Below are positions 6,587-64,000 of a stretch of 64,000 nucleotides of DNA, piece after piece. A program made the translations under genes and the position numbers. The stretch comes from Microbacterium sp. LWH11-1.2 (GTDB lineage Bacteria; Actinomycetota; Actinomycetes; Actinomycetales; Microbacteriaceae). Location: NCBI RefSeq assembly GCF_038397745.1, contig NZ_CP151636.1, positions 2,356,001 through 2,420,000 on the forward strand. Direction: 5' to 3'. Within the stretch, counting starts at the first letter, position 1, and every line of letters begins with the position of its first letter. The notes under the pieces are model-generated. The model saw only the letters and a list, made by a program, of their open reading frames with translations, made no database searches and was not told where the DNA came from.

Positions 6587-6593
6587 GGCGATC

Positions 6594-7976: not shown

Positions 7977-7978
7977 CC

Positions 7979-8038: not shown

Positions 8039-8044
8039 TAGCGT
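8039..8044 (+). promoter_or_regulatory. Candidate -10 box of the monooxygenase/ABC operon
   Basis: TAGCGT at 8039-8044 would start transcription near 8051 and leave an untranslated leader of about 60 bases that ends in AGGAGG before the ATG at 8112. No clear -35 hexamer is seen. Unlike most promoters here, this one would not be leaderless. Confidence 0.35.
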
Positions 8045-8111
8045 GATCCTCACCTCGCACCCCTGAATCACCCGCCGCACTCGTGCACCCGAAGCCCAGG
8101 AGGCATCTCCC

Positions 8112-9746: not shown

Positions 9747-9776
9747 TGAGCACGGACTGATGGGCACGGTGCACCG

Positions 9777-46334: not shown

Positions 46335-46340
46335 CCCGAA

Positions 46341-46346
46341 AGACTA
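46341..46346 (-). promoter_or_regulatory. -10 box, leaderless promoter of the MFS gene
   Basis: Minus-strand TAGTCT ends 6 bases before the ATG at 46334. It is back to back with the rsmA promoter; the start codons are 36 bases apart. Confidence 0.55.
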
Positions 46347-46358
46347 CTGAGGGTGGGG

Positions 46359-46364
46359 GACAAT
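46359..46364 (+). promoter_or_regulatory. -10 box, leaderless promoter of rsmA
   Basis: GACAAT ends 6 bases before the ATG at 46371. Confidence 0.5.
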
Positions 46365-46370
46365 GGACGG

Positions 46371-47240: not shown

Positions 47241-47243
47241 TCT
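47238..47243 (+). promoter_or_regulatory. -10 box, leaderless promoter of the aldo-keto reductase gene
   Basis: TAATCT ends 6 bases before the GTG at 47250 and overlaps the rsmA stop. Confidence 0.55.
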
Positions 47244-47249
47244 GGCACG

Positions 47250-48317: not shown

Positions 48318-48324
48318 CCGGATC

Positions 48325-49254
48325 ATGAGCGTCGCCGCGTCCGCCGGATCCGTGCACGTGCGCGCGCCGGGGAAGATCAACGTCTACCTCGGTGTCGGCG
48401 GGCGTCATGACGACGGCTACCACGCCCTCGCGACGGTGTTCCAGGCGGTCTCCCTCTATGAGGACGTGATCGCGCGGCACGCGGACGACTTCTCCCTCAC
48501 GGTCACCGGCGTCGAGGACGTGGATTCGGTGCCGCTCGACGACAGGAATCTCGCGATGCGAGCGGCCAAGCTGCTCGCGACCGCCACGGAGTACACCGGC
48601 GGTGTGGCGCTGGAGATCCGCAAGAGCGTCCCGGTCGCCGGCGGCATGGGCGGCGGCTCGGCGGATGCCGCGGCTGCGCTGGTCGCGTGCGACGCGCTCT
48701 GGGGCACCGGACTCTCGCCGGCGCGGATGCACGACCTCGCCGCCCGTCTCGGCGCCGACGTGCCGTTCGCGCTCCACGGCGGCACCGCGGTCGGCACCGG
48801 ACGCGGCGACCAGCTCAACCCCGCGCTCGCGCGCGGCCGCTTCGACTGGGTCCTGGTCACGAGCGAGCAGGGGCTGTCGACGCCGGTCGTCTACGAGCGG
48901 CTCGACATCCTGCGCGACGAGGAGGGAGCCCTGGCGGACGATCCTCCGCTGTCGCTCGACGTCCCGATCCCGGTGCTGCAGGCGCTGCGCTCGGGCGACG
49001 CCGCGCAGCTCGCCGAAGGCCTGTTCAACGACCTCCAGGCCGCGGCCGTCTACGAGCGTCCCGACCTCGAGGACGTGATCCGCCAGGGAGTCGAGGCCGG
49101 CGCCCTGCAGGGGCTCGTCTCCGGATCGGGCCCCACCGTCGCGCTGCTCTGCCCCGACCCCGAGACCGCGCAGGACGTGCAGACGACGCTGCGTGGTGCG
49201 GGCCTCGATCCCCTGCACGTGCACGGGCCCGTGGCGGGTGCACGGATTCTGTGA
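48325..49254 (+). CDS. ispE: 4-diphosphocytidyl-2-C-methyl-D-erythritol kinase
   Basis: 309-aa GHMP kinase of the MEP isoprenoid pathway; it phosphorylates CDP-methylerythritol at the 2-position. The substrate motif is APGKINVYLGVGGRHDDGYH near the N-terminus, the ATP-binding glycine loop PVAGGMGGGSADAAAAL, and the third motif VSGSGPTVALL. The ATG at 48325 is 7 bases after the reductase stop. The order rsmA-(AKR)-ispE follows the actinobacterial arrangement. Confidence 0.96.
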   Translation: MSVAASAGSVHVRAPGKINVYLGVGGRHDDGYHALATVFQAVSLYEDVIARHADDFSLTVTGVEDVDSVPLDDRNLAMRAAKLLATATEYTGGVALEIRKSVPVAGGMGGGSADAAAALVACDALWGTGLSPARMHDLAARLGADVPFALHGGTAVGTGRGDQLNPALARGRFDWVLVTSEQGLSTPVVYERLDILRDEEGALADDPPLSLDVPIPVLQALRSGDAAQLAEGLFNDLQAAAVYERPDLEDVIRQGVEAGALQGLVSGSGPTVALLCPDPETAQDVQTTLRGAGLDPLHVHGPVAGARIL

Positions 49255-49743: not shown

Positions 49744-51396
49744 TCAGCGGGCGCCGGGGGCGAGCAGTCGGAGCTGCACCATCGCCGAGAACCGCGCGTC
49801 GGGATCGGCGAGGTCGAGCCCGCTGATCTCCGCGAGCCGGCGCAGCCGATAGCGGAAGGTGTTCGGGTGGGTGTACACCCGGGCGGCGGCGACGGTGACA
49901 TCGCCGAAGGCGTCCAGCCACGCGGCCAGCGTCTCGACGAGGTGCGTGCCCCGTTCCCGATCGTTCTCGATCAGCAGCGCCACCGGGCCGGTGGGCTGAT
50001 CGCCCCGAGCGCGGACGAGATCGCCGAGCTCCACCAGCAGGGCTTCCATCTGCACGGCGGAGAACAGGGCGACGGCATCCTTCCCCGACGACTTCTGCAG
50101 CACGCGCAGGGCGCGGTCGGCGTTGACGCGCGACAGCGGGATGCTCGATGTGTCCTCCGCGAGCGTGCCGATGCCGACGCGGATGTCGGAGGCGGCGCCG
50201 AGTCTGCCGAGGAAGTCGGTGGCGACCGAGGCGGCGCGCAGATCCGTGTCGGCCTGGTCGGGGCGCACACCGACGACCGCGTAGACGACGTTGCCGATGA
50301 CGGCGACGGCGGAGCGCAGGTAGACGGCACCCAGATGCACGGCGAACGCGTCGGCGATGCGGTGCCGCTCCGCCGTGGTCCTGGCATCCGGCGCCAGAAC
50401 GTCGCTCTGCTCGTCTGCCGCGGAGAGCGCCATCACGACGCAGCGATGATCGTTCAGGCGCAGCCGGGCGGCGGCGTCGACGGCGCCGACACCGCCCTCC
50501 AGGATCGTCGAGAGCAGATCGGCGCGGAGTCGTCGTTCCACGTCGGCACCGGCACGGAGGCGCAGCAGGTGCAGCGCCACGAGACCCGCGGAGTCCTTGA
50601 GGGCGCGGACGCGGTCGCTGGTGAGCGGAGCCTGCACGGCGGCCCAGATGGAGCCGAGGATCTCATCGCCGGCGCGCACGGCCAGGGCGACCCGGGGGAA
50701 CGAGGGTGCCCCGTCCGTCGTGCCGACGGGGTCGACGTCGATCGGGTCCTCACTGCGGTACAGCTCCTGGAAGACGCCGCGCTCCTCGAGCTGACGTGTG
50801 AACCGCTCCGGAACCTGGCGCCCCAGCACCGTCTCGATACGCGCAGGGTCGGCCTCGTCCTGCCGACCCGAGAAGGCGACGACCCGGGAGTTCCGGTCCT
50901 CGATCGTCACCGGCGCGTTCAGTAGCGTCGCGATCGCGTTGGCGAGCGCGAACAGGTCGCCCGCCGGCATCCCGCCGAGCATCTGCGCCCCCTGATCGCC
51001 GACGTCTCCCTCCGCGATCAGGGATCGCAGCATGGCCGTGAGCTGCGCCCAGGACGCCCCTCGGGTGAGCGCGAGGACGGGGATGCCGGTCTCCTCCGAG
51101 GCGCGGAGCACACCCTCGTCGGCGCGCACGGGAGCGCGGAGGACCAGTGCCGTCGCCTGCTGCGCCGCGAGCGAGTGCAGGAGCGCGGCGATATCCGCCG
51201 GGTCGCTGAGGCCGACACCGAGGACCAGCGCGCGCCGCATGGGCATCGCGTCGTCGAGCACGTCATGGATGACCACGGTCTCGATCTCGGTGTCCTGATC
51301 GGCGTTGCCGCTCACCACTTCGAGCAGCGTGGTTCCGAGATCTTCGATCACACGGCCGAGGCTGGCACGGGGCCGTGTCGTCAGTGACATGAGCAC
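49744..51396 (-). CDS. PucR family transcriptional regulator
   Basis: 550-aa regulator with an N-terminal PucR sensory domain (about residues 20-145), a middle GGDEF-like degenerate domain (about 290-420) and the C-terminal PucR HTH (YTHPNTFRYRLRRLAEISG, about 510-530). I place the start at the GTG at 51396 because a minus-strand TAACCT box lies 7 bases upstream; an ATG two codons later is the alternative. PucR proteins usually activate neighbouring catabolic genes in response to a metabolite such as an amino acid or purine. It lies directly downstream of the D-amino-acid operon, separated by a strong hairpin, and is its most likely regulator. Confidence 0.88.
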   Translation of the reverse strand: MLMSLTTRPRASLGRVIEDLGTTLLEVVSGNADQDTEIETVVIHDVLDDAMPMRRALVLGVGLSDPADIAALLHSLAAQQATALVLRAPVRADEGVLRASEETGIPVLALTRGASWAQLTAMLRSLIAEGDVGDQGAQMLGGMPAGDLFALANAIATLLNAPVTIEDRNSRVVAFSGRQDEADPARIETVLGRQVPERFTRQLEERGVFQELYRSEDPIDVDPVGTTDGAPSFPRVALAVRAGDEILGSIWAAVQAPLTSDRVRALKDSAGLVALHLLRLRAGADVERRLRADLLSTILEGGVGAVDAAARLRLNDHRCVVMALSAADEQSDVLAPDARTTAERHRIADAFAVHLGAVYLRSAVAVIGNVVYAVVGVRPDQADTDLRAASVATDFLGRLGAASDIRVGIGTLAEDTSSIPLSRVNADRALRVLQKSSGKDAVALFSAVQMEALLVELGDLVRARGDQPTGPVALLIENDRERGTHLVETLAAWLDAFGDVTVAAARVYTHPNTFRYRLRRLAEISGLDLADPDARFSAMVQLRLLAPGAR

Positions 51397-51499: not shown

Positions 51500-52606
51500 T
51501 CAGAACGTGATCCACTCGGTCCGGGTCGTGACGGCCTCGAGCGCATCGGCGTGCGGCGTCACACCGATGCCGGGACCGGTCGGCACCGTCAGGGTGCCGT
51601 TCTCGACGACGAACGGGTCGGTGATGTCGCTCGTGTAGTAGCGGTTCGAGCCCGAGGTGTCGCCCGGCAGCGTGAATCCGGGGAGCGCGGCGAGGGCGAC
51701 GTTGGCGGCCCGGCCGATCCCGGTCTCGAGCATCCCGCCGGCCCAGACGGGGATCTCGTTGGCGCGGCAGACGTCGTGGATGCGTCGAGCCTCGAGGTAT
51801 CCGCCGACGCGTCCCGGCTTGATGTTCACGATCGAGCAGGCGCCGATCGCGATGGCGTCGGCGGCCGCGCGGGCCGAGACGATCGACTCGTCGAGGCAGA
51901 TCGGCGTCTGCACGAGCGCGGCGAGCTGCGCGTGGCCGAGGAGATCCTCCTCGTCGAGCGGCTGTTCGATCAGGAGCAGGTCGAACGGGTCGAGCTTGGC
52001 CAGGTGCCGGGCGTCGCCGCGCCGGTACGCCGTGTTCGCGTCGACCTGGAGCAGGATGTCGTCGCCGAACCTCTCGCGCACCGCACGGACGGGCTCGATG
52101 TCCCAGCCGGGCTCGATCTTGAGCTTGATGCGCACGTACCCCTCGTCGAGGTACCCGCCTACCGCGTCGAGCAGTTCGGGGATCGAGTCCATGATGCCGA
52201 CGGAGACGCCGCAGTCGACCGTGTCGCGGACGGCGCCGAGCTCACGCGAGAGTGGGACGCCGCTGGCGCGCAGCTCCGCGTCGAGGATGGCGAGCTCGAG
52301 GCCCGCCTTCGACATCCGGTGTCCCTTGAACTTCGCCAGGGCGGGGGCGATCTTCGAGGCGTCCAGGTCGGGGACCTGGGCCAGGGCCGGGAGCAGGAAG
52401 CGCTTGATGACGTCGAGGCTCGCCTCGACGTACTCGGAGGAGTACAGCGGGTCGCTCATCGCCACGCACTCGCCCCAGCCCTCCGCCTCGTCGGTGACGG
52501 CCCGCACCAGGATCGCCTCGCGGACGGTCTCGACCCCGAACGAGGTGCGGAACGGGGCCACCAGGGGCATCTCGATGACGCGGAGCTCGATTCCGGTGAG
52601 CTTCAT
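51500..52606 (-). CDS. N-acylamino-acid racemase / o-succinylbenzoate synthase family enzyme
   Basis: 368-aa enolase-superfamily enzyme of the NAAAR/NSAR/OSBS family. Catalytic acid-base Lys163 (KLK, with Lys161) and Lys263 (NIKPGRVGG), metal ligands Asp189 (QVDANTAY), Glu214 (IEQPLDEE) and Asp239 (CLDES). These residue numbers and the length coincide, as I recall them, with the Amycolatopsis N-acylamino-acid racemase. The end region GGMLETGIGRAANVALA and FTLPGDTSGSNRYY is typical of this branch. AGAGGAG precedes the ATG, which overlaps the GNAT stop. No menaquinone genes are nearby, while an M20 deacylase and a GNAT acyltransferase are, so racemisation of N-acyl (probably N-succinyl) amino acids is favoured over menaquinone synthesis. 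Confidence 0.9.
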   Translation of the reverse strand: MKLTGIELRVIEMPLVAPFRTSFGVETVREAILVRAVTDEAEGWGECVAMSDPLYSSEYVEASLDVIKRFLLPALAQVPDLDASKIAPALAKFKGHRMSKAGLELAILDAELRASGVPLSRELGAVRDTVDCGVSVGIMDSIPELLDAVGGYLDEGYVRIKLKIEPGWDIEPVRAVRERFGDDILLQVDANTAYRRGDARHLAKLDPFDLLLIEQPLDEEDLLGHAQLAALVQTPICLDESIVSARAAADAIAIGACSIVNIKPGRVGGYLEARRIHDVCRANEIPVWAGGMLETGIGRAANVALAALPGFTLPGDTSGSNRYYTSDITDPFVVENGTLTVPTGPGIGVTPHADALEAVTTRTEWITF

Positions 52607-53469
52607 GGGTTTTCTCCTCTGTCGATGGTGTACGTGCCCGTGCGGTCGAAGGACACGACCTCGGCGCCCTGCTCGAGCAGGGAGCCGAGGGTGTCGCGCA
52701 CGGCGAGCCGCCACCGCGTCGCCCGTTCGGGATCGGTCGTGCGGAGCGTCTCGATGTCGCGTGGCAGCGACACCCGCACGAGCCGCGCCGCGGTCTCGTG
52801 CCGCGCGGGCCCGAGATCGGCGTCGACCGTGAGCAGATCGGCGCCCGCGGGCGCCTCGACGGCGGATGCTGTGCCACGGCAGGCGTCGGCCACGCGCGGA
52901 TCGTGCACGTACCAGGTCACGAGCATCCGGTCGGTGTCGTCGCCGCCGTTGAGCGTGTCCGTCATCTGCCCGTAGAAGTTGCTGTGGTACGCCACCGGGG
53001 TCGCCGCGAGCTTGACCAGGTTGAAGTAGGCGTTGCGGCTGATGAGGGGGTCGAACGTCCAGGAGATCTCGTCGAGCTCCTGATCGATCGCCCAGGAGCG
53101 CTGATGGACCTTCAGGGCGAAGCCGACGCTGCGGCCCCGCATCCGCTCGGAGACGCCGGCGATGTGGCTGTGCAGGGCTCGTCGTCCCGGTGCTGCGAAG
53201 AAGCCGAAGCAGGCTCCGACGAGATCATCGCCTTCATAGGCCCCGCCGACGTAGCTGCCGGCTTTGGAGATCGCCCGGAGGGTCTCGACGTTCACGGGCG
53301 ACTGGCTGCCGTCGGAGGCCCAGATGCTCTGGAACAGCCGGGCGACGTCGGCGAACTCGGCGACGGTGGAGAGGAGACGGATCTCCACTCCCGCGTCGGA
53401 CGCGGCCGCCCTCGCGGCGTCCGCCGCGTCCTGGGCGGCGCTCTGCGGCACGGTGTGCATGGTGCTCAT
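52603..53469 (-). CDS. GNAT superfamily acyltransferase, COG3375-like (predicted D-amino acid N-acyltransferase)
   Basis: 288-aa protein. A GNAT fold is suggested by LVGACFGFFAA, LHSHIAGVSERMRGRSVGFALK (acyl-CoA binding loop RMRGRSVGFALK) and WTFDPLISRNAYFNL. The latter two are hallmarks of the predicted GNAT group COG3375. The first 30 residues are Ala/Asp-rich and probably disordered. ATGA overlaps couple it to the M20 gene and to the racemase gene. In the Geobacillus pathway a GNAT enzyme in the same operon N-succinylates D-amino acids; I infer that role here from the matching three-gene set. It acts in the cytoplasm. Confidence 0.8.
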   Translation of the reverse strand: MSTMHTVPQSAAQDAADAARAAASDAGVEIRLLSTVAEFADVARLFQSIWASDGSQSPVNVETLRAISKAGSYVGGAYEGDDLVGACFGFFAAPGRRALHSHIAGVSERMRGRSVGFALKVHQRSWAIDQELDEISWTFDPLISRNAYFNLVKLAATPVAYHSNFYGQMTDTLNGGDDTDRMLVTWYVHDPRVADACRGTASAVEAPAGADLLTVDADLGPARHETAARLVRVSLPRDIETLRTTDPERATRWRLAVRDTLGSLLEQGAEVVSFDRTGTYTIDRGENP

Positions 53470-54581
53470 TCCTGTTCTCCCGCCAGGACGTCGGCGATGA
53501 GCGCCGTCAGGAGGGTCGTGCGTTCCGGGATCATCGAGACGACCACGTGCTCGTCGTCGGCGTGCGCCCCGCCGCCCACGGCCCCGAGGCCGTCGAGTGT
53601 GGGGATGCCGAGACCGGCGGTGAAGTTGCCGTCGGACGCGCCTCCGACCTCGACGCCGTCGAACGGCGTCAGGCCGGCATCGGCCGCGAGCCGGGTCGCC
53701 CGCGCGAACAGGGTGGCGGAGGTACCGGGCTCCATCGGGCGGCGGTTCGCACCGCCCTCGATCCGCACGACGGCGCCGTCGACGCTCGGTCCGATCGCAC
53801 GGATCGCCTGATCGACCCTGTGCTGCTCCGCGGTCGTGCGCACCCGCACGTCGACGGCGAACGCCGCGTCGGACGGGACGGTGTTGGTCGTGTGCCCCGC
53901 ATGCAGCAGCGTGGGGGTCACCGTCGTTCCGCGTTCCGCATCGCCGAGTCCGGCGACCGCCAGGATGAGGTGCGCCGCCTCGACCGCGGCGTTCACGCCG
54001 CGCTCCGGCTCGAGTCCGGCGTGTGCGGCACGGCCGGTCACCACGACGCGGTAGAGCGAGACGCCCTTGCGTGCGACCTTGAGCGCTCCGCCGTCGGCCG
54101 AGGCCTCCAGCACGAACACCGCGTCGCAGTCTCGCGCCTCCTCCTCGATCAGCGTCCGAGAGCTGGGCGAACCCAGCTCCTCGTCGCCGGTGATGAGGAT
54201 GCTGATCCCGTCGCGGTCCGCAAGCGCCGCGGCGGCGTGCAGCGCCATCACGACCCCGGTCTTCATGTCGAAGCATCCGGGCCCGCGGAGGACCCCGTCC
54301 TGCACCTCGAACGGATGCGTCTGCAGCGATCCGAGCGGCCACACCGTGTCGTGATGACCGAGCAGCAGCACCCTCGGTGCGCCGAAGCGCCACCGCAGGT
54401 GGGTGCGCCCGTCGAGCACGATCCGCTCCGGCGCGACGCCGAGGATCCGCTCGCCCAGCTCTGCCGTCACGTCCGCGCTGCGGGCCACGGCGTCGAGGTC
54501 GGTCGACGGCGACTCGCAGGTCACGAGCGTCTCGATGTCCGCGACGAGCGTGTCGACGAGGAGCGCCTCCTGCGTGATCAT
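53466..54581 (-). CDS. M20 family metallohydrolase, predicted N-acyl-L-amino-acid deacylase
   Basis: 371-aa zinc hydrolase related to carboxypeptidase G2. Metal ligands in order: His76 (GHHDTVWP), Asp105 (CFDMKTG), Glu134-Glu135 (TGDEELGS), Glu159 (VLEA) and a C-terminal His (GGGAHADDE). A dimerisation domain lies between about 170 and 285. The ATG at 54581 shares a base with the preceding stop (TGATG); a GTG one codon earlier is possible. In the known D- to L-amino-acid pathway an enzyme of this subgroup removes the succinyl group from the L-form only, which makes the conversion irreversible. Confidence 0.87.
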   Translation of the reverse strand: MITQEALLVDTLVADIETLVTCESPSTDLDAVARSADVTAELGERILGVAPERIVLDGRTHLRWRFGAPRVLLLGHHDTVWPLGSLQTHPFEVQDGVLRGPGCFDMKTGVVMALHAAAALADRDGISILITGDEELGSPSSRTLIEEEARDCDAVFVLEASADGGALKVARKGVSLYRVVVTGRAAHAGLEPERGVNAAVEAAHLILAVAGLGDAERGTTVTPTLLHAGHTTNTVPSDAAFAVDVRVRTTAEQHRVDQAIRAIGPSVDGAVVRIEGGANRRPMEPGTSATLFARATRLAADAGLTPFDGVEVGGASDGNFTAGLGIPTLDGLGAVGGGAHADDEHVVVSMIPERTTLLTALIADVLAGEQE

Positions 54582-57500
54582 CACGACACCTTCGGCGCTG
54601 CACGCACGCCGTAGTGCACGTACTTCTCACCCGTAGCGAGCGTATAGAAGACCAGGGCCTGCCACGCCTGCGTGCCCTCGGGGCGGATCACGAACTCGTT
54701 CTCGCGCACCGGGATCAGGTCATGCTCTTCGATGGGGTCGGGCAGGAGCGACGCGAGCGGTCCCGTGACGACCGTGCGCAGCCGCAGACCGCTGTCTTCG
54801 TCGAAGATCTCCATGCGCACGCCGGCGCGGTCGTAGACGCCGACGATGTCGGAGAAGTCGGCCTCGAACGGCTCGGCCGGCGGCGTCAGGTCGTCGGGCA
54901 GGTGCACATCGGCGAGCTCGGAGAAGATCTCGTCGAAGAGCTCGTCGTACAGGTCGCGCGTGTTCCCGCCGTTCGAGAGCAGCGTGACGGCGAGCCCTTC
55001 CTCGGGGAGGATGCGCAGGAACGACGACTGCCCGATCGTGTTGCCGTCGTGGCCGATGAGCTTCTTGCCGTCCCAGTCGAACAGGATCCACCCGACGCCC
55101 CAGGCGTCGCCGATCGAATACGGGTTGGGAACGGCGACCTGGCGCTCCTGCATCCGGGCGACGCTGTCCTCCGAGAGCACCCGGGTGCCGTCGGCCGACA
55201 GGCCACCGGTGAGGTGCAGGCGGGCGAACTCCAGGACGTCTGCCGTCGTGGAGTTGATCAGCCCTGCGGGACCCATCGAGCGCGGCAGCATCCATGCCGG
55301 GGCGAGCTCAGGCCGCCCGTCGTCGCCGATCGTGGTGTGCCCGCTGGCCGCGCGGAACATGATCGCCTCCTCCGGGAGGGTCGACGAATGCGTGAGCCCG
55401 AGCGGCGTGAACACGAGGTCGCGCATCGCCTGGTCCCAGGTCGTGCCCGTGAGCTTCTCGATGACCCGCCCCGCCAGCACGAAACCGGAGTTGCAGTAAG
55501 ACATCGTCGCTCCGAGCGGATGGTTCTGCGCGACGCCGTCGAGGATCTCGACGTACTTCTCGAGGGTGTCGTCGCCGCGTCCGGTGTCGGTGAAGACGTC
55601 GCCGTCGATGCCGCTCGTGTGGCTGAGCAGGTGGCGCATCGTGACCGTGCGGGTGACCTCGGGGTCGGACGCCCGGAACTCCGGAAGGTACTGCACCACC
55701 GGAGCGTCGAGGTCGAGCAGGCCGTCGTCGACGAGCTTCATGGCCGCCGTCGCCGTCCAGACCTTGCCCATCGACCCGATCTGGAAGACGGAGTCGTCGG
55801 TCGTCTCGATGCCCGTGCGGACGTTGAGGATGCCGTGGTGCGCGAACACCGGCTCCTCGCCGAGGCGCAGGATGCCGAGCGTGGCGCCGGGGACGTGGTG
55901 CGCCTCGGCCAGGGTGCTGAGCCGCTGCTGCCAGCGGGTCGCGTCCAGCCGCGGACGGATGCGCGTTCCGGCAGGCGGGGCGTACTGCTCCACCCAGTCG
56001 ACGATCCGCTGCGAGAAGTCGGCGCGGTGCGACGGCGGACCCGACAGCGGGAACAGGTGCGCACCACCGGGGTACAGCACGAGACGCGCCGGAACGTCGC
56101 GTTCGCGCAGCGCGGCGAACCACTGCTCGGCCTGCCCGACGGGGCAGCGATCGTCGGCGGCGCCGTGCAGGATCAGCGTCGGCGTGGTGACGCGATCGAC
56201 CTGGGTGAAGGGCGACTGGGCCGCCAGCTTCTCCTGGTCGCGCCACGGAAGGCCGCCGTTCTCCTTGGCCGAGAGGTAGTGACCGACGTCCGACGTGCCG
56301 CCGACGCTGGAGAGGTCGCTGACCACGCCACCGGCCACGGCAGCGGCGAAGCGGTCGTCGCGTGACGTCAGGTAGCAGGTCATGAAGCCGCCGTAGCTGT
56401 AGCCCGTGACGCCCAGACGCGCCGGGTCGGCGATGCCCTCGGCCACGAGCTGGTCGATCGGCTCCAGGAAGTCGTTCGCGTCGTTGACGCCCCACCCTCC
56501 CGAGACGGCGCGGAAGAAGGCGTCGCCGTAGCCGTCGCTGCCTCGAGGGTTGATCGTGAGGATCGCCCATCCGCGGTTCGCGAGCAGCTGGTGGTACGGA
56601 TGGGTGAGGTCGGCGGCGCCGTTCCAGGCGTTGTGCGGTCCGCCGTGGATGTCGAGCAGCAGGGGCAGAGGTCCCTGGGCATCGGGGTCGCGGCGCAGCC
56701 AGCCGGTGACGACGGTGCCGTCGGCGATCGTGAAGCGACGCTCCTCAGCCGGGGCGAGCGGGACGTCGACGGACCCGTACTCGGTGAGCGGGCGCAGGGT
56801 TCCGTCCGCGAGGTCGACCAGGCCCACTTCGCCGAAGGAGTCCGGGGTGGCCACGACGACCGCGGCCCGCGAGCCCGACACCGAGAGGCCGGAGACGTTG
56901 GTGGTCCCGGCGACGAGAGCCCGCGCCGCCGTCCCGTCGGCGGCGACCGAGTACAGGTGCGAATAGCCGTTGTCGCGCAGGCAGAACACCAGGCGCCCCG
57001 CATCGTCCTGCTGGGGCATGCCGCCGGGGTAGCCGGGACCGCCCGGCATCACGTTGCGGTCGAGCGCGGCGGCGAGGTCGACCGGCGCACCGCCATCGAC
57101 CGGGAAGAGCAGCAGACCGGCGATGCCGATCGCGGTGTCGGTGCGTCCCGCCGCCACGACGTGCGCGCCATCGGCGGTCCACCCCGTGACCGAGGCCTGC
57201 GTGTCGGCGGATCCGAGTCGCACGGGTGCGGCGTTGGCATCCGTCGACGACGTGACGAAGACCTGGATCCGCATCGTCAGGTCGGCGTCATCGTCGGGCG
57301 CCGAGGAGAACGCGAGACGGGTGCCGTCGGGCGACCAGAAGGGATCGGTCGTGTGCGCGGTGCCGCGCGTGAGCACGGTGACGGCGCCGTCGTCCACGGC
57401 GACGACGTGGATCTGCTGGACGAGCGTGCCCAGGTTGCCGGCGCCGTCCGCCTTGTAGCCGAGACGGTCGGCGACCGCCGGCGCCGACCGACGCGCGAGG

Positions 57501-57919
57501 ATCTTCGCCGTGTCGTCGCCGGGCAGCGCCGCGCTGTCGACGGGGGCGGCGAACGCGATGCGGGTGCCGTCGGGGCTCCACTGCGGGGATCCGGCGCCGA
57601 GCGGCAGCGACGTGAGTGCGCGCGGCTCACCGCCGTTCGCGGGGAGCAGCCAGAGCTGGGCGCCGCTGTCTCCGGCGCGGAGGAACGCGAGCCGGGTGCC
57701 GTCGGGGCTCCACACGGGAGACGAGTCCGCCGTGCCGTGCGTGAGGCGCACCGGAGCGCCACCCGCCGTCGGCACCTGCCAGAGGGAGCGCTGGTCCTTG
57801 TCGCCGTCGCGGTCGGTCGTCCGCAGCGCGTACACGATGCGCGAACCGTCGGGGGAGAGGGCCGGCTGCTCCGGCGAGGTGATCGCGAGGAAGTCGTCGA
57901 TGGTCACGCGGCGGTTCAT
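54581..57919 (-). CDS. Fusion of an S9 prolyl-oligopeptidase-type peptidase with a class C beta-lactamase/D-aminopeptidase-like domain
   Basis: 1112 aa, two hydrolases in one chain, no signal peptide, so probably cytoplasmic. Residues about 1-400: beta-propeller with repeated SPDGTR/WSPDGTRL motifs. About 400-650: S9 alpha/beta-hydrolase with Ser508 (GYSYGG), Asp589 (HGAADDRCP) and His621 (PGGAHLF). About 660-1010: penicillin-recognising domain with Ser716-x-x-Lys719 (GSMGK), Tyr808-x-Asn810 (SYCNSG) and His957-x-Gly959 (GHDGN). His-x-Gly in place of KTG is the pattern of Ochrobactrum D-aminopeptidase. The last 100 residues form a beta-rich lipocalin-like tail. It follows an importer operon and precedes D-amino-acid conversion genes. 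Predicted role: cleave imported peptides that carry L- and D-residues. Confidence 0.88.
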   Translation of the reverse strand: MNRRVTIDDFLAITSPEQPALSPDGSRIVYALRTTDRDGDKDQRSLWQVPTAGGAPVRLTHGTADSSPVWSPDGTRLAFLRAGDSGAQLWLLPANGGEPRALTSLPLGAGSPQWSPDGTRIAFAAPVDSAALPGDDTAKILARRSAPAVADRLGYKADGAGNLGTLVQQIHVVAVDDGAVTVLTRGTAHTTDPFWSPDGTRLAFSSAPDDDADLTMRIQVFVTSSTDANAAPVRLGSADTQASVTGWTADGAHVVAAGRTDTAIGIAGLLLFPVDGGAPVDLAAALDRNVMPGGPGYPGGMPQQDDAGRLVFCLRDNGYSHLYSVAADGTAARALVAGTTNVSGLSVSGSRAAVVVATPDSFGEVGLVDLADGTLRPLTEYGSVDVPLAPAEERRFTIADGTVVTGWLRRDPDAQGPLPLLLDIHGGPHNAWNGAADLTHPYHQLLANRGWAILTINPRGSDGYGDAFFRAVSGGWGVNDANDFLEPIDQLVAEGIADPARLGVTGYSYGGFMTCYLTSRDDRFAAAVAGGVVSDLSSVGGTSDVGHYLSAKENGGLPWRDQEKLAAQSPFTQVDRVTTPTLILHGAADDRCPVGQAEQWFAALRERDVPARLVLYPGGAHLFPLSGPPSHRADFSQRIVDWVEQYAPPAGTRIRPRLDATRWQQRLSTLAEAHHVPGATLGILRLGEEPVFAHHGILNVRTGIETTDDSVFQIGSMGKVWTATAAMKLVDDGLLDLDAPVVQYLPEFRASDPEVTRTVTMRHLLSHTSGIDGDVFTDTGRGDDTLEKYVEILDGVAQNHPLGATMSYCNSGFVLAGRVIEKLTGTTWDQAMRDLVFTPLGLTHSSTLPEEAIMFRAASGHTTIGDDGRPELAPAWMLPRSMGPAGLINSTTADVLEFARLHLTGGLSADGTRVLSEDSVARMQERQVAVPNPYSIGDAWGVGWILFDWDGKKLIGHDGNTIGQSSFLRILPEEGLAVTLLSNGGNTRDLYDELFDEIFSELADVHLPDDLTPPAEPFEADFSDIVGVYDRAGVRMEIFDEDSGLRLRTVVTGPLASLLPDPIEEHDLIPVRENEFVIRPEGTQAWQALVFYTLATGEKYVHYGVRAAPKVS

Positions 57920-57938
57920 GGATGCTCCAATCGGATGG

Positions 57939-59027
57939 TCAGTTCACTGTGTCTGGTGCGAGGGGCAGCAGTGTTGTGTCGTCGGCCGAAAGGATCGCCG
58001 CCCTTTGGGAGTTCGGCACAGTGGTGTTCGGTGCAGTGGTGTTCGGTGCAGTGGTGTTCGGCGGCGTCCCGACCGGGAGGTCCGCTCCCGTGCCGGCGAA
58101 GTGGCAGGCGGCGCCCGCGCTCCCCGAGGGCTGCAAGGGCTCGGAGATGACGCAGAGCTGTCGATCCGGTCGCGCGGCGGGCCCGATCGGGCACCGCGGG
58201 TGGAAGCGGCATCCGCTGGGTGGCGCGTGCGGGTCGGGCGGCTCCACGGCGACGGGCGCGAGCGGATCGATGTCCAGCAGGCTGCCGTGGCGCGTGGGCG
58301 CAGAGGCGAGCAGCTCCTTCGTATAGGGATGCTGGGGATCGGCGAGCACCTGATCGGTCGGACCGACCTCGACGATCTTGCCGAGATACATCACCGCGAT
58401 GTGGTCGCTGAGGTACCGCACCACCGCCAGGTTGTGCGAGATGAAGAGCATGGTCAGGTCGAGCTCGGCGCGCAGCGAGCGGACCAGGTTCAGGACGGAG
58501 CCCTGCACCGACACGTCGAGCGCCGAGGTGATCTCGTCGGCGATGATGACCTCGGGGCGCGCGGCGAGGGCGCGGGCCAGGGCGATGCGCTGACGCTGAC
58601 CGCCGGACAGGGCCCCGGGCAGCGATGCCGCGCGCTCGGGATCGAGGCTCACGAGCTCGAGCAGCCGGGCGACCTCCGCACGTCGGGCTGCGGGCCTGCG
58701 GATGTCGCGGGGAAGCGCCTCGGCGATCGACTCGCCGATCGTCATCCTCGGGTCGAGTGAGGAGAACGGGTCCTGGAACACCATCTGGATGGGACGGTTC
58801 CGGCGGAAGCGGCGCACATCGACGCCGTCGAGGGTGATGGTGCCCTCGCTGATCGGAGAGAGGCCGATGGCGGCCCTGGCGAGCGTGGACTTGCCGGACC
58901 CGGACTCGCCGACCAGACCGACGACCGAGCCGGAGGGAACGACGAGGCTCACGCCGTCCACGGCCGTGAGTCCGGAACGGTGGGTTCCGAACCGCACGCT
59001 CACGGTGTCGAAGCGCAGTTCGCTCAT
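57939..59027 (-). CDS. ABC transporter ATP-binding protein, DppF/OppF type
   Basis: 362-aa single ATPase. Walker A GESGSGKST (residues 40-48), signature LSGGQRQR, Walker B VIIADEI (the usual DEP/DEA is DEI here), switch His in FISHNLAVV. The oligo_HPY C-terminal Cys motif (CRFHPRCP) is present. After it the protein runs on about 45 residues in a low-complexity tail with a PNTTA tandem repeat (see 58009-58068). The ATG overlaps the stop of the fused permease-ATPase gene (ATGA). It pairs with that gene's ATPase half to form the nucleotide-binding heterodimer. Confidence 0.92.
   Translation of the reverse strand: MSELRFDTVSVRFGTHRSGLTAVDGVSLVVPSGSVVGLVGESGSGKSTLARAAIGLSPISEGTITLDGVDVRRFRRNRPIQMVFQDPFSSLDPRMTIGESIAEALPRDIRRPAARRAEVARLLELVSLDPERAASLPGALSGGQRQRIALARALAARPEVIIADEITSALDVSVQGSVLNLVRSLRAELDLTMLFISHNLAVVRYLSDHIAVMYLGKIVEVGPTDQVLADPQHPYTKELLASAPTRHGSLLDIDPLAPVAVEPPDPHAPPSGCRFHPRCPIGPAARPDRQLCVISEPLQPSGSAGAACHFAGTGADLPVGTPPNTTAPNTTAPNTTVPNSQRAAILSADDTTLLPLAPDTVN
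58009..58068 (-). repeat. 15-bp tandem repeat encoding PNTTA in the ATPase C-terminal tail
   Basis: Units of GTGTTCGGTGCAGTG (plus strand) begin near 58009, 58024, 58039 and 58054: two are identical and the outer two diverged. The coding strand reads TPPNTTAPNTTAPNTTVPN. The length is a multiple of three, so copy-number change would keep the frame. Confidence 0.85.
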
Positions 59028-60970
59028 CGGACGGCTCCTTCGTGCTGGGCGATCGGCAGGGCCGACGTGACCGCGGGGATCGCGGCGTCTGCGGCGGGGG
59101 CATCGCCGTCCACCGGATGCCAGCACGCGACGCGGTGGCCGCCGGCGTCGACGACGAGTTCGGGGTCGCTCTCGCGGCAGAGGTCGGTCGCGAGCGGGCA
59201 GCGATCGGCGAAGGCGCAGCCGACGGGGAACGCTCCCGGTGCGGGCGGGCGCCCGGGGATCATCTTGAGCGGCACCGAGCGGTCGGTGTCGAGCTCGGGC
59301 ACCACGTCGAGCAGCGCGCGGGTGTACGGGTGCCTGGCCTCGGTGTGCAGCTGCGCGGCGGGCAGGTCCTCCACGATGCGTCCCGCGTACATCACGAGCA
59401 CGCGGTCGCAGGTCTGCGCGATCACGGCGATGTCATGACTGATCAGCAGGATCGCCGCATCGGTGTCGCGTCGCACGCCCGCCAGCAGCTGCAGGACCTG
59501 GCGCTGGACCGTCACGTCGAGCGCCGTCGTCGGCTCGTCGGCGATGATCAGCTTCGGGTGGTTCATCAGTCCCATCGCGATCATGGCGCGTTGGCGCATG
59601 CCGCCGGAGAACTCGTGCGGGTACTGACGTGCGCGCCGAGCCGCCGCGGGAACGCGAACGGCCTGGAGGCGATCGACGGCGCGGGCCATCGCCTGGCTGC
59701 GGGTGACCTCCTGGTGCTCGGAGGCGGCTTCCGCGAGCTGCGACCCGATCCGCCTGGTCGGGTTGAACGAGGTCATCGGGTCCTGGAACACCATGGCCAG
59801 AGAGGTGCCGAGCAGGCTGCGCACCGAGCGCTCCGGCGCGTCGAGCAGCGGCGTGCCGCAGAACGCGAGCTGCGCCGCCGTGACCTGACCGGGACGCTCG
59901 ATGAGCTGCGCTGCGGCGAGTGCGGTCAGGCTCTTGCCCGAGCCGGACTCTCCGACCACGCCGATCGCCTCGCCGCGCGAGACGGTGAAGCTCACTCCGC
60001 GCACGGGGGTGAGCCAGCCGTCGGGTCCGGGAAAGGACACGCGCAGGTCGTCGACGAGGAGCACCACGTCGTCGCCGCCGACCTGCGCGTGAACGGGGTC
60101 GCCCGTGCGGGCGGTGCGGGGAAGCCTGCGGCGACGGCGGGACGAGCGCCCGCCGATCACGGACGCGGCCGTCTCGCCGAGGAGGTTGAACGCGAGGCCG
60201 GCGACGATGACCGCGACGGCGGGTCCGATCGCCGCTGCCGGGTTCAGGTAGATGCGGTTCAGTCCCTCGCCGAGCAGGCGGCCCCAGTCGTAGGCGGGCA
60301 CCTGCACGCCGAGGCCGAGGAACGACAGGCCGGCGAAGGCGAGCAGAGCCGATCCGGCGCTGACGGTCGCGTTGACGACGAGGGGCTCGCCGATGTTGGG
60401 CAGGACGTGCCGGATGAGCACGCGGACGCGGGAGACCCCGGCGACGCGTGCGGCCGAGATGAAGTCGCGGCCGGCGATCGAGGCGGAGAGGGTCTGGGTC
60501 AGGCGGGCGAACTGGGGCGCCATGGCGAAGCCGATCGCCAGGACCGCGCCGGTCGTGCCGACGCCGAAGATCACGGCGAGGAACAGGGCGAGCAGCAGGC
60601 CGGGGAACGCCACGGCGATGTTCACGGTCCCGGCGATGAAGCGTCCTGCCCAGCGCGGGAGCACCGACGGCGCCGTCCCGAGGAGGGTCCCGGCGGTGAC
60701 GCCGATGAGGACGGCCAGCACCGCCAGCACGATCGACAGCTGCGTGGCGACCATGACCCTGGCCAGCACGTCGCGACCGAGGGAGTCGGTGCCGAGCAGG
60801 TGCGCGGCGCTGGGCCCCTGCATGATGGCCGTCGGATCGACCTGCTCGGCCTGCGGACCCCAGATGAGCGGGGCGAAGACGGCGGTCAGGGCGACGAGGA
60901 TCACCAGCCCGAGCGCGGTGGCCCCGAGCGGGGAGCGGACGACGTCGAGCCATTTCGACTGCGCGGACAT
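59024..60970 (-). CDS. Fused ABC permease-ATPase (DppC-DppD) of the peptide importer
   Basis: 648-aa fusion. Residues about 1-275 are an OppC-type permease with HLLGTDSLGRDVLARVMV and the coupling loop ISAARVAGVSRVRVLIRHVL. A basic linker (RSSRRRRRLPRTAR) follows. Residues about 300-630 are an ATPase with Walker A GESGSGKS (Lys346), signature FSGGMRQR, Walker B LIIADEP, and the oligo_HPY Cys motif (CAFADRCP). This fusion is known in actinobacterial peptide importers. The ATG at 60970 shares one base with the previous stop (TGATG). Confidence 0.92.
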   Translation of the reverse strand: MSAQSKWLDVVRSPLGATALGLVILVALTAVFAPLIWGPQAEQVDPTAIMQGPSAAHLLGTDSLGRDVLARVMVATQLSIVLAVLAVLIGVTAGTLLGTAPSVLPRWAGRFIAGTVNIAVAFPGLLLALFLAVIFGVGTTGAVLAIGFAMAPQFARLTQTLSASIAGRDFISAARVAGVSRVRVLIRHVLPNIGEPLVVNATVSAGSALLAFAGLSFLGLGVQVPAYDWGRLLGEGLNRIYLNPAAAIGPAVAVIVAGLAFNLLGETAASVIGGRSSRRRRRLPRTARTGDPVHAQVGGDDVVLLVDDLRVSFPGPDGWLTPVRGVSFTVSRGEAIGVVGESGSGKSLTALAAAQLIERPGQVTAAQLAFCGTPLLDAPERSVRSLLGTSLAMVFQDPMTSFNPTRRIGSQLAEAASEHQEVTRSQAMARAVDRLQAVRVPAAARRARQYPHEFSGGMRQRAMIAMGLMNHPKLIIADEPTTALDVTVQRQVLQLLAGVRRDTDAAILLISHDIAVIAQTCDRVLVMYAGRIVEDLPAAQLHTEARHPYTRALLDVVPELDTDRSVPLKMIPGRPPAPGAFPVGCAFADRCPLATDLCRESDPELVVDAGGHRVACWHPVDGDAPAADAAIPAVTSALPIAQHEGAVR

Positions 60971-61968
60971 CAGGCCTCCCGGATCGTGGAGCGAGGATCG
61001 AGGAGTGCGAGCACCACGTCGATGATGAGGTTCACCAGGAGCACGCCGATGCCGTAGACGAGGACGATGCCCTGCACGACCGAGTAGTCCTTGGTGAGGA
61101 TGGATTGCACGATCATCGTGCCGAGTCCCGGCCATGCGAAGACGTTCTCGACGAGCACGGTGCCGGCGACCATGCCGGTCAGCAGCAGCCCGGTGAGGGT
61201 CAGAGTCGCCGTCATGGCGTTGGGCAGCGCGTGACGCGAGTAGATGCGGCGTGGGGCGAGGCGCTTGGCGCGGGCGGTGCGGATGAAGTCCTGGCCGAGC
61301 ACCGCGAGCACCTCCACGCGGATGATCCGGGAGAACACCGCGATCGGGCCGATGGCCAGGGCCAGCACGGGGAGGACGAGCGAGAGCGGTGCGGTGTTCC
61401 CCGCCACCGGGAACCAGCCGAGCGAGACGGCGAAGATGTACACGAGACCGACCGCGAGCAGGAACTCGGGGATCGCGGCCAGCACCACGCTCGTCGTCGC
61501 GAAGCCGAGCTCGAGTCCGCGCCGTCGTCCGCCGCGCGTGGCGACGGCCATCGTGACCCCGAGCGGCACCGCCACGAGGAGGACGAGCAGCACCGCCAGC
61601 AGAGCCAGCTGCAGGGTGGCAGGGAGCCGGGTCGCGATGATCTCGCTGACCGGCTGGCTCGTCAGCATCGACGTGCCCATGTCTCCGGTGAAGAGTCCGG
61701 TGATGTAGCGCACATACTGCACGGGGAGCGGCTGGTCGAGGCCGAGCGCCGCACGACGGGCCTCGACCAGCTCGGCGGGGGCGTTCATCCCGAGGGCGGC
61801 GCGGACCGGATCGCCCGGCACCAGGTGGATCATGAGGAAGGCAGCCGTGACCAGCACCCACACCGCGAGGACGAACTGCCCCCCGCGACGGACCAGGAAG
61901 GACAACCAGGGGTTGTCCGACCGTGCGGATCTGATCAATATCGCCTGCGTGGCGGTGGTGCTGGCCAT
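60970..61968 (-). CDS. ABC transporter permease, DppB/OppB type (peptide importer)
   Basis: 332-aa inner-membrane permease. N-terminal anchor FLVRRGGQFVLAVWVLV, LVPGDPVRAALG, six helices, coupling loop RTARAKRLAPRRIYSRHALP, and the OppB end LLDPRSTIREA. The N-terminal 25 residues before the anchor are polar. The ATG at 61968 was chosen by alignment of the anchor; it lies 16 bases after the lipoprotein stop. Confidence 0.9.
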   Translation of the reverse strand: MASTTATQAILIRSARSDNPWLSFLVRRGGQFVLAVWVLVTAAFLMIHLVPGDPVRAALGMNAPAELVEARRAALGLDQPLPVQYVRYITGLFTGDMGTSMLTSQPVSEIIATRLPATLQLALLAVLLVLLVAVPLGVTMAVATRGGRRRGLELGFATTSVVLAAIPEFLLAVGLVYIFAVSLGWFPVAGNTAPLSLVLPVLALAIGPIAVFSRIIRVEVLAVLGQDFIRTARAKRLAPRRIYSRHALPNAMTATLTLTGLLLTGMVAGTVLVENVFAWPGLGTMIVQSILTKDYSVVQGIVLVYGIGVLLVNLIIDVVLALLDPRSTIREA

Positions 61969-61984
61969 CGGCTGCCTTCCGGTC

Positions 61985-63580
61985 TCACTCGTACATGCGG
62001 ATCGACGCGGGGTCGATGCCGTCGTTCTCGATGAAGGTCGCCTTCTGCGCGTACGTCGAACGATCCTGGTTCGCGAACGGGATGACGCTCGTGGTGGCGT
62101 AGAGCGCCTGCTCCGCCTTGCCCCAGTCGTCGCATCCCTCGTCGCCGGCCTTGTTCGACGCGGCCGTGACCGCGGCCGTGTAGTCGGCGTTCTCGATCGA
62201 CGCGAAGTTCGTGCCGTTCGGCGGCGTCGGGCCCGAGTAGAACGGCACGAGCATGCTGGGCAGGGACACCGTGATGGGTGCCGCGGAGACATCCCAGTCG
62301 CCGGTGACGAAGAGCGTCTCGCTGAGCGTGGGGGAGTCGGCCGACTTCACGGTGAGATCCACGCCCAGCTCCTTCCAGGTCGCCTGGATGAGCTCGGCAC
62401 CGGCGTTGCCGGCGTCGCCCTGCAGCGAGGAGTAGATCATCCCCAGCTCGAGCCGCTTCCCGTCCTTCTCGCGGATGCCGTCCGAGCCGGCGATCCAGCC
62501 GGCGTCATCGAGCGCCTTCGCCGCCGCCTTCGCGTCGACCTCGGGGAGGAACCCGTCGACGACGTCGGCACGGCACGGGTTCGGCGAGATGGTGACGAGC
62601 CCGGTGGGCACCGTCCCGACTCCGCCGGTGAGCACCTGCCGCAGCTGGGGGAGATCCAGCGCCTGCATCAGGGCCTCGCGCACCTCTTGATCGGCGGTGG
62701 GGCGTCCCTCCGCCTGGTTGAAGATCATCTGGCCCACGGCGACGGGGAGCGCGGTCTTGAACAACCCGGCATCCTCCAGCCGCTTCGCGTCCGGTCCGAT
62801 CACCAGGGCGGCGTTGACCTCGCCGGAGAGCAGCAGGTTGGTGGCCGTCGTCTCGTTGGGGACGACGCGGAACACCACCTTCTCGGGGAGCCCTGCCTGT
62901 TCCGGGTCCCAGTCGCCGGGGCCCCAGGTGAAGTCCTCGCGGCGGGTGAGGGTGTACTGGCTGTTGGGGATGATCTCGGTCATCGTGAACATGCCGGTCG
63001 CGCCCTCGCCCTTGGCGAGCGCGTCCGGGTCGTCGAGCACGGTGCCGCAGACGATCGCGATGCTGCCGATGTTCTGGAGCAGGAACGAGTCGGGACGGCC
63101 GCTCGTGACGGTGACGGTCCCGGCGTCGTCGTCGCCCACGGCCGACGTGCCCGGCTGCACCTGAAGGCCGACGAGCGGGGAGCCGTTCGCCGGGTCTCCG
63201 ATGTGGCTGATGTTCGCCGCCACGTCGGTCGCGGTCAGTGGCGTCCCGTCCTCGCAGGTGACGCCGTCGCGCAGGGTGAACGTCGCCGTCGTGGTGTCCG
63301 CCTCCCACTCCGAGGCGAGGCCGGACACCACGCTCCCGTCGTCCTGCACCTCGACGAGGCGCGAGTACAGGAAGCGGTCGATCGACCTGGCCACGGACAT
63401 GACCGTGATCAGCGGATCGAGGCTGCCCGGATCGGTGGAAATGACGGTGGTGAAGGTCTTCCCCTCCGCGAGGGCGCCCGTGTCACCGCCCCCGCCCGGC
63501 GAGGCGCCGGACGCGGCGCACGAGGTGAGAGCGAGCGCGGCAGCGCCCATGAGAGCGACCAGCGAGGTACGAGAACGCAT
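61985..63580 (-). CDS. Peptide-type ABC substrate-binding lipoprotein
   Basis: 531-aa SBP_bac_5 lipoprotein with lipobox LTSC (Cys21) and a Gly/Ser-rich linker (ASPGGGGDTG). Motifs: DGVTCEDGTPLTATDVA (the family's TFSDGTP-like element), GEGATGMFTMTEI, and AAAKALDDAGWIAG. GGAGG precedes the ATG. As the first importer gene, located next to peptidase and D-amino-acid genes, it is predicted to bind short peptides, possibly muropeptide stems or other D-residue peptides. The ligand cannot be read from sequence. Confidence 0.88.
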   Translation of the reverse strand: MRSRTSLVALMGAAALALTSCAASGASPGGGGDTGALAEGKTFTTVISTDPGSLDPLITVMSVARSIDRFLYSRLVEVQDDGSVVSGLASEWEADTTTATFTLRDGVTCEDGTPLTATDVAANISHIGDPANGSPLVGLQVQPGTSAVGDDDAGTVTVTSGRPDSFLLQNIGSIAIVCGTVLDDPDALAKGEGATGMFTMTEIIPNSQYTLTRREDFTWGPGDWDPEQAGLPEKVVFRVVPNETTATNLLLSGEVNAALVIGPDAKRLEDAGLFKTALPVAVGQMIFNQAEGRPTADQEVREALMQALDLPQLRQVLTGGVGTVPTGLVTISPNPCRADVVDGFLPEVDAKAAAKALDDAGWIAGSDGIREKDGKRLELGMIYSSLQGDAGNAGAELIQATWKELGVDLTVKSADSPTLSETLFVTGDWDVSAAPITVSLPSMLVPFYSGPTPPNGTNFASIENADYTAAVTAASNKAGDEGCDDWGKAEQALYATTSVIPFANQDRSTYAQKATFIENDGIDPASIRMYE

Positions 63581-63629
63581 CTGTTGCCTCCAGCAGGGGT
63601 GGGTGGTGCTTCGGGTGGGATCGGGTCTT

Positions 63630-64000
63630 TCAGAGGGTGAGCGAGCGGATGTGCTCGACGGCGACGCACGCGGCTCGGCCGATCGACGCGTCGACGGCAG
63701 GCAGGCGCTCGGCGAGCGAGTCGGCGCGGGTGAACACCGCGACCGCGTACTGCCGTCCGTCGGGATAGGTGACGACGCCGGCTTCGTTGCGCCACGCGGG
63801 GACCGTTCCGGTCTTCGCCGCGATCTTCACCTCGGAGGGGAAACCGGAGGAGAGCCGATGCGGCCAGATCTGCTGCGCCATGATCTCGCGGGCGGCGGCG
63901 GATGCCGCGGCGGGCGCTGCCGTGTCCGTCCACAGGGCGTTCAGCAGCGTCGTCACCTCGCGCGGCGTGGATGCCGACGTGCGTGCGGGCTCCAGGACGC
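63630..64000 (-). CDS. Serine beta-lactamase-family protein, class A-like (5' end outside window)
   Basis: C-terminal part of a penicillin-recognising serine hydrolase (Beta-lactamase2/class A fold). The frame is open to the window edge; an internal GTG at 63956 is not the start. Visible: ARTSASTPREVTTLLNALW, typical of the family's helix before the third motif, and KIAAKTGTVPAWRNEAGVV containing the KTG triad, then a final strand-helix ending in IRSLTL. The SxxK and SDN motifs would lie outside. It is 49 bases upstream of the lipoprotein on the same strand and may be the first gene of the operon. True beta-lactamase, DD-peptidase or peptidase activity cannot be separated here. Confidence 0.85.
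   Translation of the reverse strand, partial: VLEPARTSASTPREVTTLLNALWTDTAAPAAASAAAREIMAQQIWPHRLSSGFPSEVKIAAKTGTVPAWRNEAGVVTYPDGRQYAVAVFTRADSLAERLPAVDASIGRAACVAVEHIRSLTL

Follow-up and report, generated by a model that had tools for sequence, protein, structure and literature searches.

What might a bacterium do with a single gene run that pairs a peptide importer and several serine hydrolases with an N-acyltransferase, an N-acylamino acid racemase and an amidohydrolase? This question is raised by a minus-strand run of genes in the soil bacterium Microbacterium sp. LWH11-1.2, which lies in a stretch of 64,000 nucleotides of contig NZ_CP151636.1 (positions 2,356,001 to 2,420,000; hereafter the window) and extends about 8 kb beyond the window end. 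On comparative sequence grounds, we put at roughly 0.62 the probability that the run is a catabolic operon for peptides containing D-amino acids. At its core are adjacent genes, on one strand, for an M20 amidohydrolase, a GNAT N-acyltransferase and a racemase of the N-succinylamino acid/N-acylamino acid racemase (NSAR/NAAAR) group. In the trio of Sakai et al. 2006, a GNAT reportedly N-acylates a D-amino acid, an N-succinylamino acid racemase racemises the product and an M20 enzyme hydrolyses the L form. What appears to be new here is that this known trio sits within an operon seemingly devoted to the uptake and cleavage of peptides. No description of the combined locus was recognised in the open-access literature searched, a negative that leaves room for a published account elsewhere.

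In the proposed route, binding lipoproteins and an Opp-type ATP-binding cassette (ABC) importer, recognised by their families and a lipobox, would take up peptides as their predicted substrate. The peptides would then be cut in the cytoplasm by several hydrolases, all putatively specific for D-residues: the S12 enzymes, the S9-S12 fusion protein, the class A-like hydrolase and an amidohydrolase of the D-aminoacylase family (Daa). The GNAT may then acylate the free D-amino acid, the racemase would bring its N-acyl-D and N-acyl-L derivatives into equilibrium, and the M20 enzyme would deacylate the L form and so pull the conversion towards L. We infer these three steps, with their acyl group, acyl donor and direction of flux, from the described trio, and the racemase step also from a solved racemase. 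The resulting L-amino acids would enter ordinary metabolism, and the whole may be regulated by a PucR-family protein, a divergently encoded LacI-like protein or both. The substrates are probably peptides that carry hydrophobic or aromatic D-residues, for example nonribosomal peptides. Such residues appear likelier than D-Ala or D-Glu because the GNAT of the described trio is reported to act on D-Phe, D-Tyr and D-Trp, making their N-acetyl and N-succinyl derivatives (PMC8762209).

Core, importer and hydrolase genes

Gene frames were intact throughout the run and spacing was tight. The M20 gene (53466..54581, 371 amino acids, with a GTG at 54584 as a possible start) overlaps the GNAT gene (52603..53469, 288 amino acids including a C-terminal extension) by 4 bp, and the GNAT gene in turn overlaps the racemase gene (51500..52606, 368 amino acids) by 4 bp. 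Pfam placed all operon proteins of the window except the GNAT, whose match fell below the cut-off (19.8 versus 22 bits). Comparison of the GNAT sequence with solved structures gave two chance-level matches only; its fold is backed by an AlphaFold2 model (predicted local distance difference test score, pLDDT, 88.9) and by clear structure matches to GNATs. The M20 protein matched PF01546 and PF07687 and had carboxypeptidase G2 as its closest solved relative (1cg2, 6e-38), with alignment of the motifs that we take to form the metal site.

The racemase belongs to the enolase superfamily and aligned without gaps over 366 residues to the Amycolatopsis N-acylamino acid racemase (1sja/4a6g, 4e-177). 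It retains K161, K163, D189, E214, D239, K263 and R266, as do 147 of 147 aligned racemases; these residues presumably include both catalytic lysines and the metal ligands of the NSAR/NAAAR group. A tree was built from 147 sequences, using the best match per locus and dropping matches shorter than 300 residues or containing a stop. With a support of 0.996, PDB entry 1SJA grouped with exactly the eight loci that bear Daa directly upstream of the core, whereas the three remaining loci with Daa fell outside this clade; it was 86 % identical to the racemases of two members, L066 and L080. Given this nesting and identity, the solved Amycolatopsis racemase is, as judged from the tree, a close relative of cluster members. 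Racemases of this group are used in amino-acid manufacture (PMC7431475). If the proposed route is correct, it would give these enzymes, otherwise studied for their promiscuity, a testable physiological role.

All parts of an importer were present: a binding lipoprotein together with two permease domains and two ATPases that carry oligo_HPY domains. The solute-binding lipoprotein of family 5 (peptide/nickel type; 61985..63580, 531 amino acids, PF00496 at 165.4 bits) is followed after 16 bp by an OppB/DppB-type permease (60970..61968, 332 amino acids, PF00528 at 117.6 bits). The permease gene overlaps by 1 bp a gene that fuses an OppC-type permease to an OppD-type ATPase in one frame (59024..60970, 648 amino acids; PF00528, PF00005 and PF08352), and this overlaps by 4 bp an OppF/DppF-type ATPase gene (57939..59027, 362 amino acids; PF00005 and PF08352). 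Near its C-terminus, the OppF-type protein has a tail with a short repeat, PNTTA-PNTTA-PNTTV (58013-58061). A lipobox was found in both binding proteins of the operon (LTSC in the window copy), and a simple hydropathy check, made with no trained predictor, showed no strong N-terminal hydrophobic segment in any operon hydrolase, the GNAT, the racemase or the M20 protein. Because the lipobox is on the binding proteins and no signal segment was seen on the hydrolases, these data suggest that peptides would be imported first and then cleaved and converted in the cytoplasm.

Downstream of the OppF-type gene, after 19 bp, lies a fusion of an S9 peptidase (propeller plus hydrolase) and an S12 domain (54581..57919, 1112 amino acids; PF00326 at 155.6 and PF00144 at 230.5 bits), which overlaps the M20 gene by 1 to 4 bp. 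In all 16 aligned relatives, S508/D589/H621 of the S9 part and S716-K719, Y808-N810 and H957-G959 of the S12 part were invariant; we take these residues to be catalytic. The AlphaFold2 model of the fusion (pLDDT 71.2, predicted template modelling score 0.58, several S12 stretches below 50) was not used. At the other end of the importer, 49 bp from the binding protein gene, the window end cuts a class A-like serine hydrolase gene, of which 63630..64000 encodes the C-terminal part. The remainder was read from a stretch covering the extension (L012; window coordinate = L012 coordinate + 58999) and reaches L012:5536, equivalent to window position 64535, giving 301 amino acids in all. This hydrolase has SVFK, SDN and KTG motifs, no signal peptide and the solved BlaB (2wuq, 7.2e-15) as best relative; the omega-loop motif ExxLN, which we assume to complete the class A beta-lactamase signature beside SxxK, SDN and KTG, was not found in it.

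On the same strand, L012 continues with a first free-standing S12 enzyme (5533-6921), a second binding protein (7070-8671), a second free-standing S12 enzyme (8668-10056), a third S12 enzyme (10199-11527) and Daa (11527-13014). The two binding proteins are 77 % identical and two of the S12 enzymes 80 %, which suggests that a binding protein-S12 pair (L012 5533-10056) was tandemly duplicated in this genome. The free-standing S12 enzymes have SITK, YNN and HDG motifs in two cases and STSK, YSN and HGG in the 442-amino-acid copy. Similarity to alkaline D-peptidase and D-amino acid amidase was seen for the S12 proteins of the operon. Daa scored 635.3 bits on PRK09061 (cut-off 340) and aligned with N-acyl-D-glutamate deacylase (3gip, 7.2e-27) and D-aminoacylase (1m7j, 3.6e-26), its HSH aligning to HTH of 1m7j so that the HxH metal motif is present. 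The gene types named by the first-pass annotation, a reading of the window alone, were all present and intact where it placed them, the PucR gene lying just outside 51500..64000. Its description of the system as complete was premature, as the Daa gene and three S12 hydrolases lie beyond the window.

The PucR-family gene (49744..51390, minus strand, 548 amino acids) is separated from the racemase gene by 109 bp. Its product matched PF13556 (74 bits) and PF17853 (28 bits), with PF07905 slightly below the cut-off (32.4 versus 33.5 bits). It is a plausible regulator of the operon; the other candidate is the LacI-like gene, read by eye, which diverges from the far end of the run (L012 13214-14227).

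Conservation of the gene neighbourhood

Neighbourhoods were compared in three sets of loci. Set A held the best 80 of 437 GNAT relatives from named genomes and is weighted towards close relatives. Set B held all 55 other GNAT places of at least 285 bits listed for 393 genomes of the class; its source search scored up to six candidates per genome and may have overlooked copies. Some contigs occur in both set A and set B (e.g. L082/L106 and L059/L108), and the two sets are not independent of each other. Set C (L150-L169) comprised 20 hand-picked, lower-scoring GNAT places, including the second GNAT of the window genome. A gene was counted as present if tblastn aligned at least 60 residues at any position of the fetched stretch, at identity thresholds of 55 % for the racemase, 50 % for M20, 45 % for PucR, 48 % for S9 and S12, 55 % for Opp, 50 % for Daa and 60 % for membrane dipeptidase. 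The S9 and S12 tally required both domains, and the importer at least three of its four genes. Stretches ending at contig edges were kept in the counts, so absences are upper bounds.

In set A, the GNAT lay near a racemase on one strand in 80/80 loci, with M20 and hence the whole trio in 70, PucR in 73 (on the same strand near the GNAT in 73/80), S9 and S12 in 50 and the importer in 48. Trio and importer occurred together in 46, with S9 and S12 as well in 41, and in the same order in 39. Excluding the 19 Microbacterium-type loci (L015-L033) left 61, among which the racemase was found in 61, PucR in 56, M20 in 51, the importer in 31 and the trio with importer, S9 and S12 in 24. Genera bearing the full set outside those 19 were Amycolatopsis, Kribbella, Nocardioides, Streptomyces, Prauserella, Paractinoplanes, Amorphoplanes, Jiangella, Phytoactinopolyspora, Aeromicrobium and Actinoallomurus. 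Among the 55 places of set B we found M20 in 47, the racemase in 45, the trio in 38, PucR in 31, the importer in 25 and S9 and S12 in 25; the trio accompanied the importer in 22 and the importer plus S9 and S12 in 21, while the order OppB-S9-M20-GNAT-racemase was also seen in 21. Class A-like hydrolases (16), membrane dipeptidases (10) and Daa (4) were less frequent. Set C displayed the racemase in 14 of 20, M20 in three, the importer in one and S9 and S12 in one, with L161 a full cluster; these low counts compared with sets A and B show that the criteria do not fire everywhere. Five more places from the genus, tallied apart (L170-L174), had the racemase in four, M20 in three and the importer in one. 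At one of these, L174, Daa-, class A- and Opp-type genes were seen mostly on the opposite strand. Identities of OppB matches of at least 200 residues in sets A and B were bimodal (22 at 25-44 %, 71 at 55-100 %).

Both fusions were conserved. The OppC-OppD fusion occupied one frame in 45/48 assessable loci of set A and 24/25 of set B, and S9 and S12 shared a single frame in 48/52 and 23/26, respectively. From the neighbourhood counts it follows that the gene grouping is more than chance. A neighbourhood search had been proposed by the first-pass annotation, whose central idea was that the trio is joined to a dedicated peptide importer and a D-specific peptidase. This is borne out in so far as the trio, an importer and hydrolases of families that contain D-peptidases form a conserved unit in 41/80 loci of set A and 21/55 of set B. 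The peptide part accompanies the higher-scoring type of GNAT, and the GNAT-racemase pair alone is more widespread.

Within the genus, a GNAT match at 1e-20 occurred in 138 of 149 genomes, mostly shorter and lower-scoring, and 22 of the 149 had one of at least 250 bits by hand count. For all ten other genomes of the genus whose GNAT exceeded 430 bits, the upstream 20 kb was fetched. In nine of the ten, the first S12 enzyme, the class A-like hydrolase, binding protein, importer, S9-S12 fusion and M20 lay upstream on one strand, and eight of these nine additionally carried Daa and a divergent LacI. The third S12 enzyme sat after the binding protein in two of the nine. These loci (L179-L187) have a single binding protein and a single copy of the S12 enzyme that is duplicated in the window genome. 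The tenth (L188) retained only the end of an S12 domain before M20.

Comparison of the loci also revealed differing genes in front of the core. Daa was directly upstream of M20-GNAT-racemase in eight loci (L066, L067, L073, L075, L080, L094, L098 and L118), with M20 not detected in the fetched stretch of L073, and lay elsewhere in the stretch in L034, L123 and L129. When ten loci of the class were extended upstream (L189-L198), three had a D-aminoacylase-type gene in the slot before the binding protein. For the lineage of family f25, the slot in L196 (L196:1218-2789) holds a true D-aminoacylase relative (7.6e-78 to 1m7j) that keeps the GNCG motif; at L192, L197 and L109 this position was taken by weaker D-aminoacylase-type matches of 26-29 %. 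A membrane dipeptidase preceded M20-GNAT in the ten set B places already counted, and the member in L040 scored 283.6 bits on PF01244. The arrangement membrane dipeptidase-M20-GNAT, with the racemase elsewhere in the genome, was seen in L124, L126, L128, L132, L133, L147, L148 and L149. The racemase was absent from the stretch in ten set B places, of which L141 ends at a contig edge; nine of these ten genomes were searched and all nine have a racemase elsewhere at 69 % identity or more.

We lean slightly towards reading these patterns as a shared, modular actinobacterial D-peptide system. Orthologous importers and S9-S12 fusions would feed a fixed acylate-racemise-deacylate core, and lineages would swap the hydrolase at the front end, be it a PRK09061 amidohydrolase, a true D-aminoacylase, a membrane dipeptidase or an enzyme of the S12 or class A-like type. 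The Amycolatopsis racemase would belong to such a core, with catabolism of D-residue peptides as its native job. If so, actinobacteria would possess a common route for turning D-residue peptides, perhaps including peptide antibiotics, into food, with the S9-S12 fusion peptidase and the conserved permease-ATPase fusion as named parts.

Alternative explanations

Several observations weigh against a D-peptide operon. For the window binding protein, NCBIfam gave matches of nickel, opine and oligopeptide type, none of which reached its cut-off. The M20 protein is nearest carboxypeptidase G2 and no known desuccinylase, the S12 fold also contains esterases and beta-lactamases, and in the Daa of this genome the Cys of the D-aminoacylase GNCG motif, presumably a metal-site residue, is replaced. 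The best NCBIfam model for the racemase is an o-succinylbenzoate synthase (menC_lowGC_arch, TIGR01928; 296.9 bits, cut-off 200.65). M20 or the racemase was absent from the stretch in 17/55 set B places and the orthologous importer in 30/55. The GNAT-racemase pair occurred in 14/20 places of set C, nearly all without peptide genes, indicating that the pair has other settings. In about 15 loci of set A the core stands opposite genes for a prolyl oligopeptidase, a protein of the erythromycin esterase family and a further binding protein of family 5; at L058:13540-18340 and similar loci this prolyl oligopeptidase-type set is divergent and includes Opp permeases. Such a setting says nothing for D-residues.

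Cells can handle the D-Ala and D-Glu of peptidoglycan with their own racemases. Scavenging of peptidoglycan, whereby the importer would take up stem peptides and the hydrolases and trio would recover D-Ala and D-Glu, is an unlikely explanation of the operon, although the importer is of peptide type, DD-peptidases occur in the S12 and class A-like folds and related loci carry a membrane dipeptidase. A Pfam scan of 15 operon proteins (E up to 0.001), which covered all but LacI, returned no match to the families M55, S66, M15 or NlpC/P60. On the L-Ala-D/L-Glu epimerase models NF041118 and NF011708 the racemase scored 77.6 bits (cut-off 500) and 44.4 bits (cut-off 343), respectively, and the GNAT of the described trio is reported to act on aromatic D-amino acids. 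The first-pass annotation had offered peptidoglycan stem peptides and D-residue natural products alike as food; with the aromatic substrates reported for the described GNAT and no Pfam match to those peptidase families, the former become the weaker guess and the latter the likelier.

Less probable still, though with some plausibility at the Daa-bearing loci, is scavenging of N-acyl-amino acids, in which Daa and M20 would act on imported N-acyl-D- and N-acyl-L-amino acids, the racemase would interconvert them and the GNAT would be auxiliary. The PRK09061 score of Daa and its position directly upstream of the core in eight loci fit this account, which leaves unexplained both the peptide-type importer with S9 and S12 in 21/55 places and the GNAT near the racemase on one strand throughout set A. 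Self-protection ranks marginally lower again. Here the S12 enzymes would destroy D-residue peptide antibiotics and the other proteins dispose of the fragments, in keeping with the likeness to alkaline D-peptidase and D-amino acid amidase and with a published D-stereospecific peptidase reported to cut gramicidin. With no signal segment seen on the operon hydrolases, however, an antibiotic could be attacked only after import, and three dedicated inversion enzymes would seem to exceed the needs of defence. That the racemase is really the menaquinone o-succinylbenzoate synthase with incidental neighbours is highly improbable: its best model and the 4a6g group of entries, which carries both enzyme names alike, point that way, but the neighbourhood is conserved and a separate MenC is encoded at G000:C1:4178689-4179660 (473.7 bits, cut-off 288). 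This second gene counts against the doubt, raised with the first-pass annotation, that the racemase acts only in menaquinone synthesis: the racemase is not the sole MenC candidate in the genome, and the reading of it as the only MenC was rejected. A weak PF13378 match at 3775020 was considered as a possible MenC and rejected, the gene reading by eye as an enolase.

Known systems and minor observations

The D-peptide operon proposed here shares elements with several known systems. It has the same three families as the Sakai trio, here adjacent with 4-bp overlaps, with a racemase close to a solved NAAAR/NSAR. Across many actinobacteria these are joined to genes for a peptide importer, for the S9-S12 fusion, for hydrolases of the S12 and class A-like types and for a member of the D-aminoacylase family. 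The Bacillus subtilis dpp-ykf operon likewise combines a peptide importer, D-residue peptidases and an enolase-superfamily epimerase; in contrast, the 15 scanned proteins gave no Pfam match to M55 (DppA), S66 (LdcA) or NlpC/P60, and the racemase lies in the N-acylamino acid racemase clade. The Escherichia coli ddpXABCDF operon for D-Ala-D-Ala uptake sets an importer for D-residue peptides beside a peptidase, whereas our locus has no Pfam match to the DdpX/VanX-type M15 family and does contain stereo-inversion genes. Catabolism of D-glutamate through N-acetylation and the DgcA racemase follows the same logic of acylation, racemisation and deacylation, but the racemase here scored 76.9 bits on the DgcA model (NF042940, cut-off 400). 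With D-stereospecific S12 peptidases such as alkaline D-peptidase and D-amino acid amidase, the S12 enzymes share the fold and the SxxK, YxN and HxG motifs; they differ in lacking a signal segment and in that one copy is fused to S9.

Promoter and terminator scans yielded sites no more frequently than in shuffled sequence, and a tRNA search of the window found none. The downstream flank (window 46128-49254) holds genes reading by eye as ksgA, an aldo/keto reductase and ispE. In set A, 15 loci of the Microbacterium type likewise have relatives of the aldo/keto reductase and ispE downstream of the cluster, and because of this recurrence the chromosomal site looks conserved. The second, shorter GNAT of the same family in the window genome (L155, G000:C1:1583423-1583911) had no racemase in its fetched stretch. 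Pairs of GNAT and racemase also occur in small genomes, for example those of L158 (1.2 Mb) and L163 (2.2 Mb).

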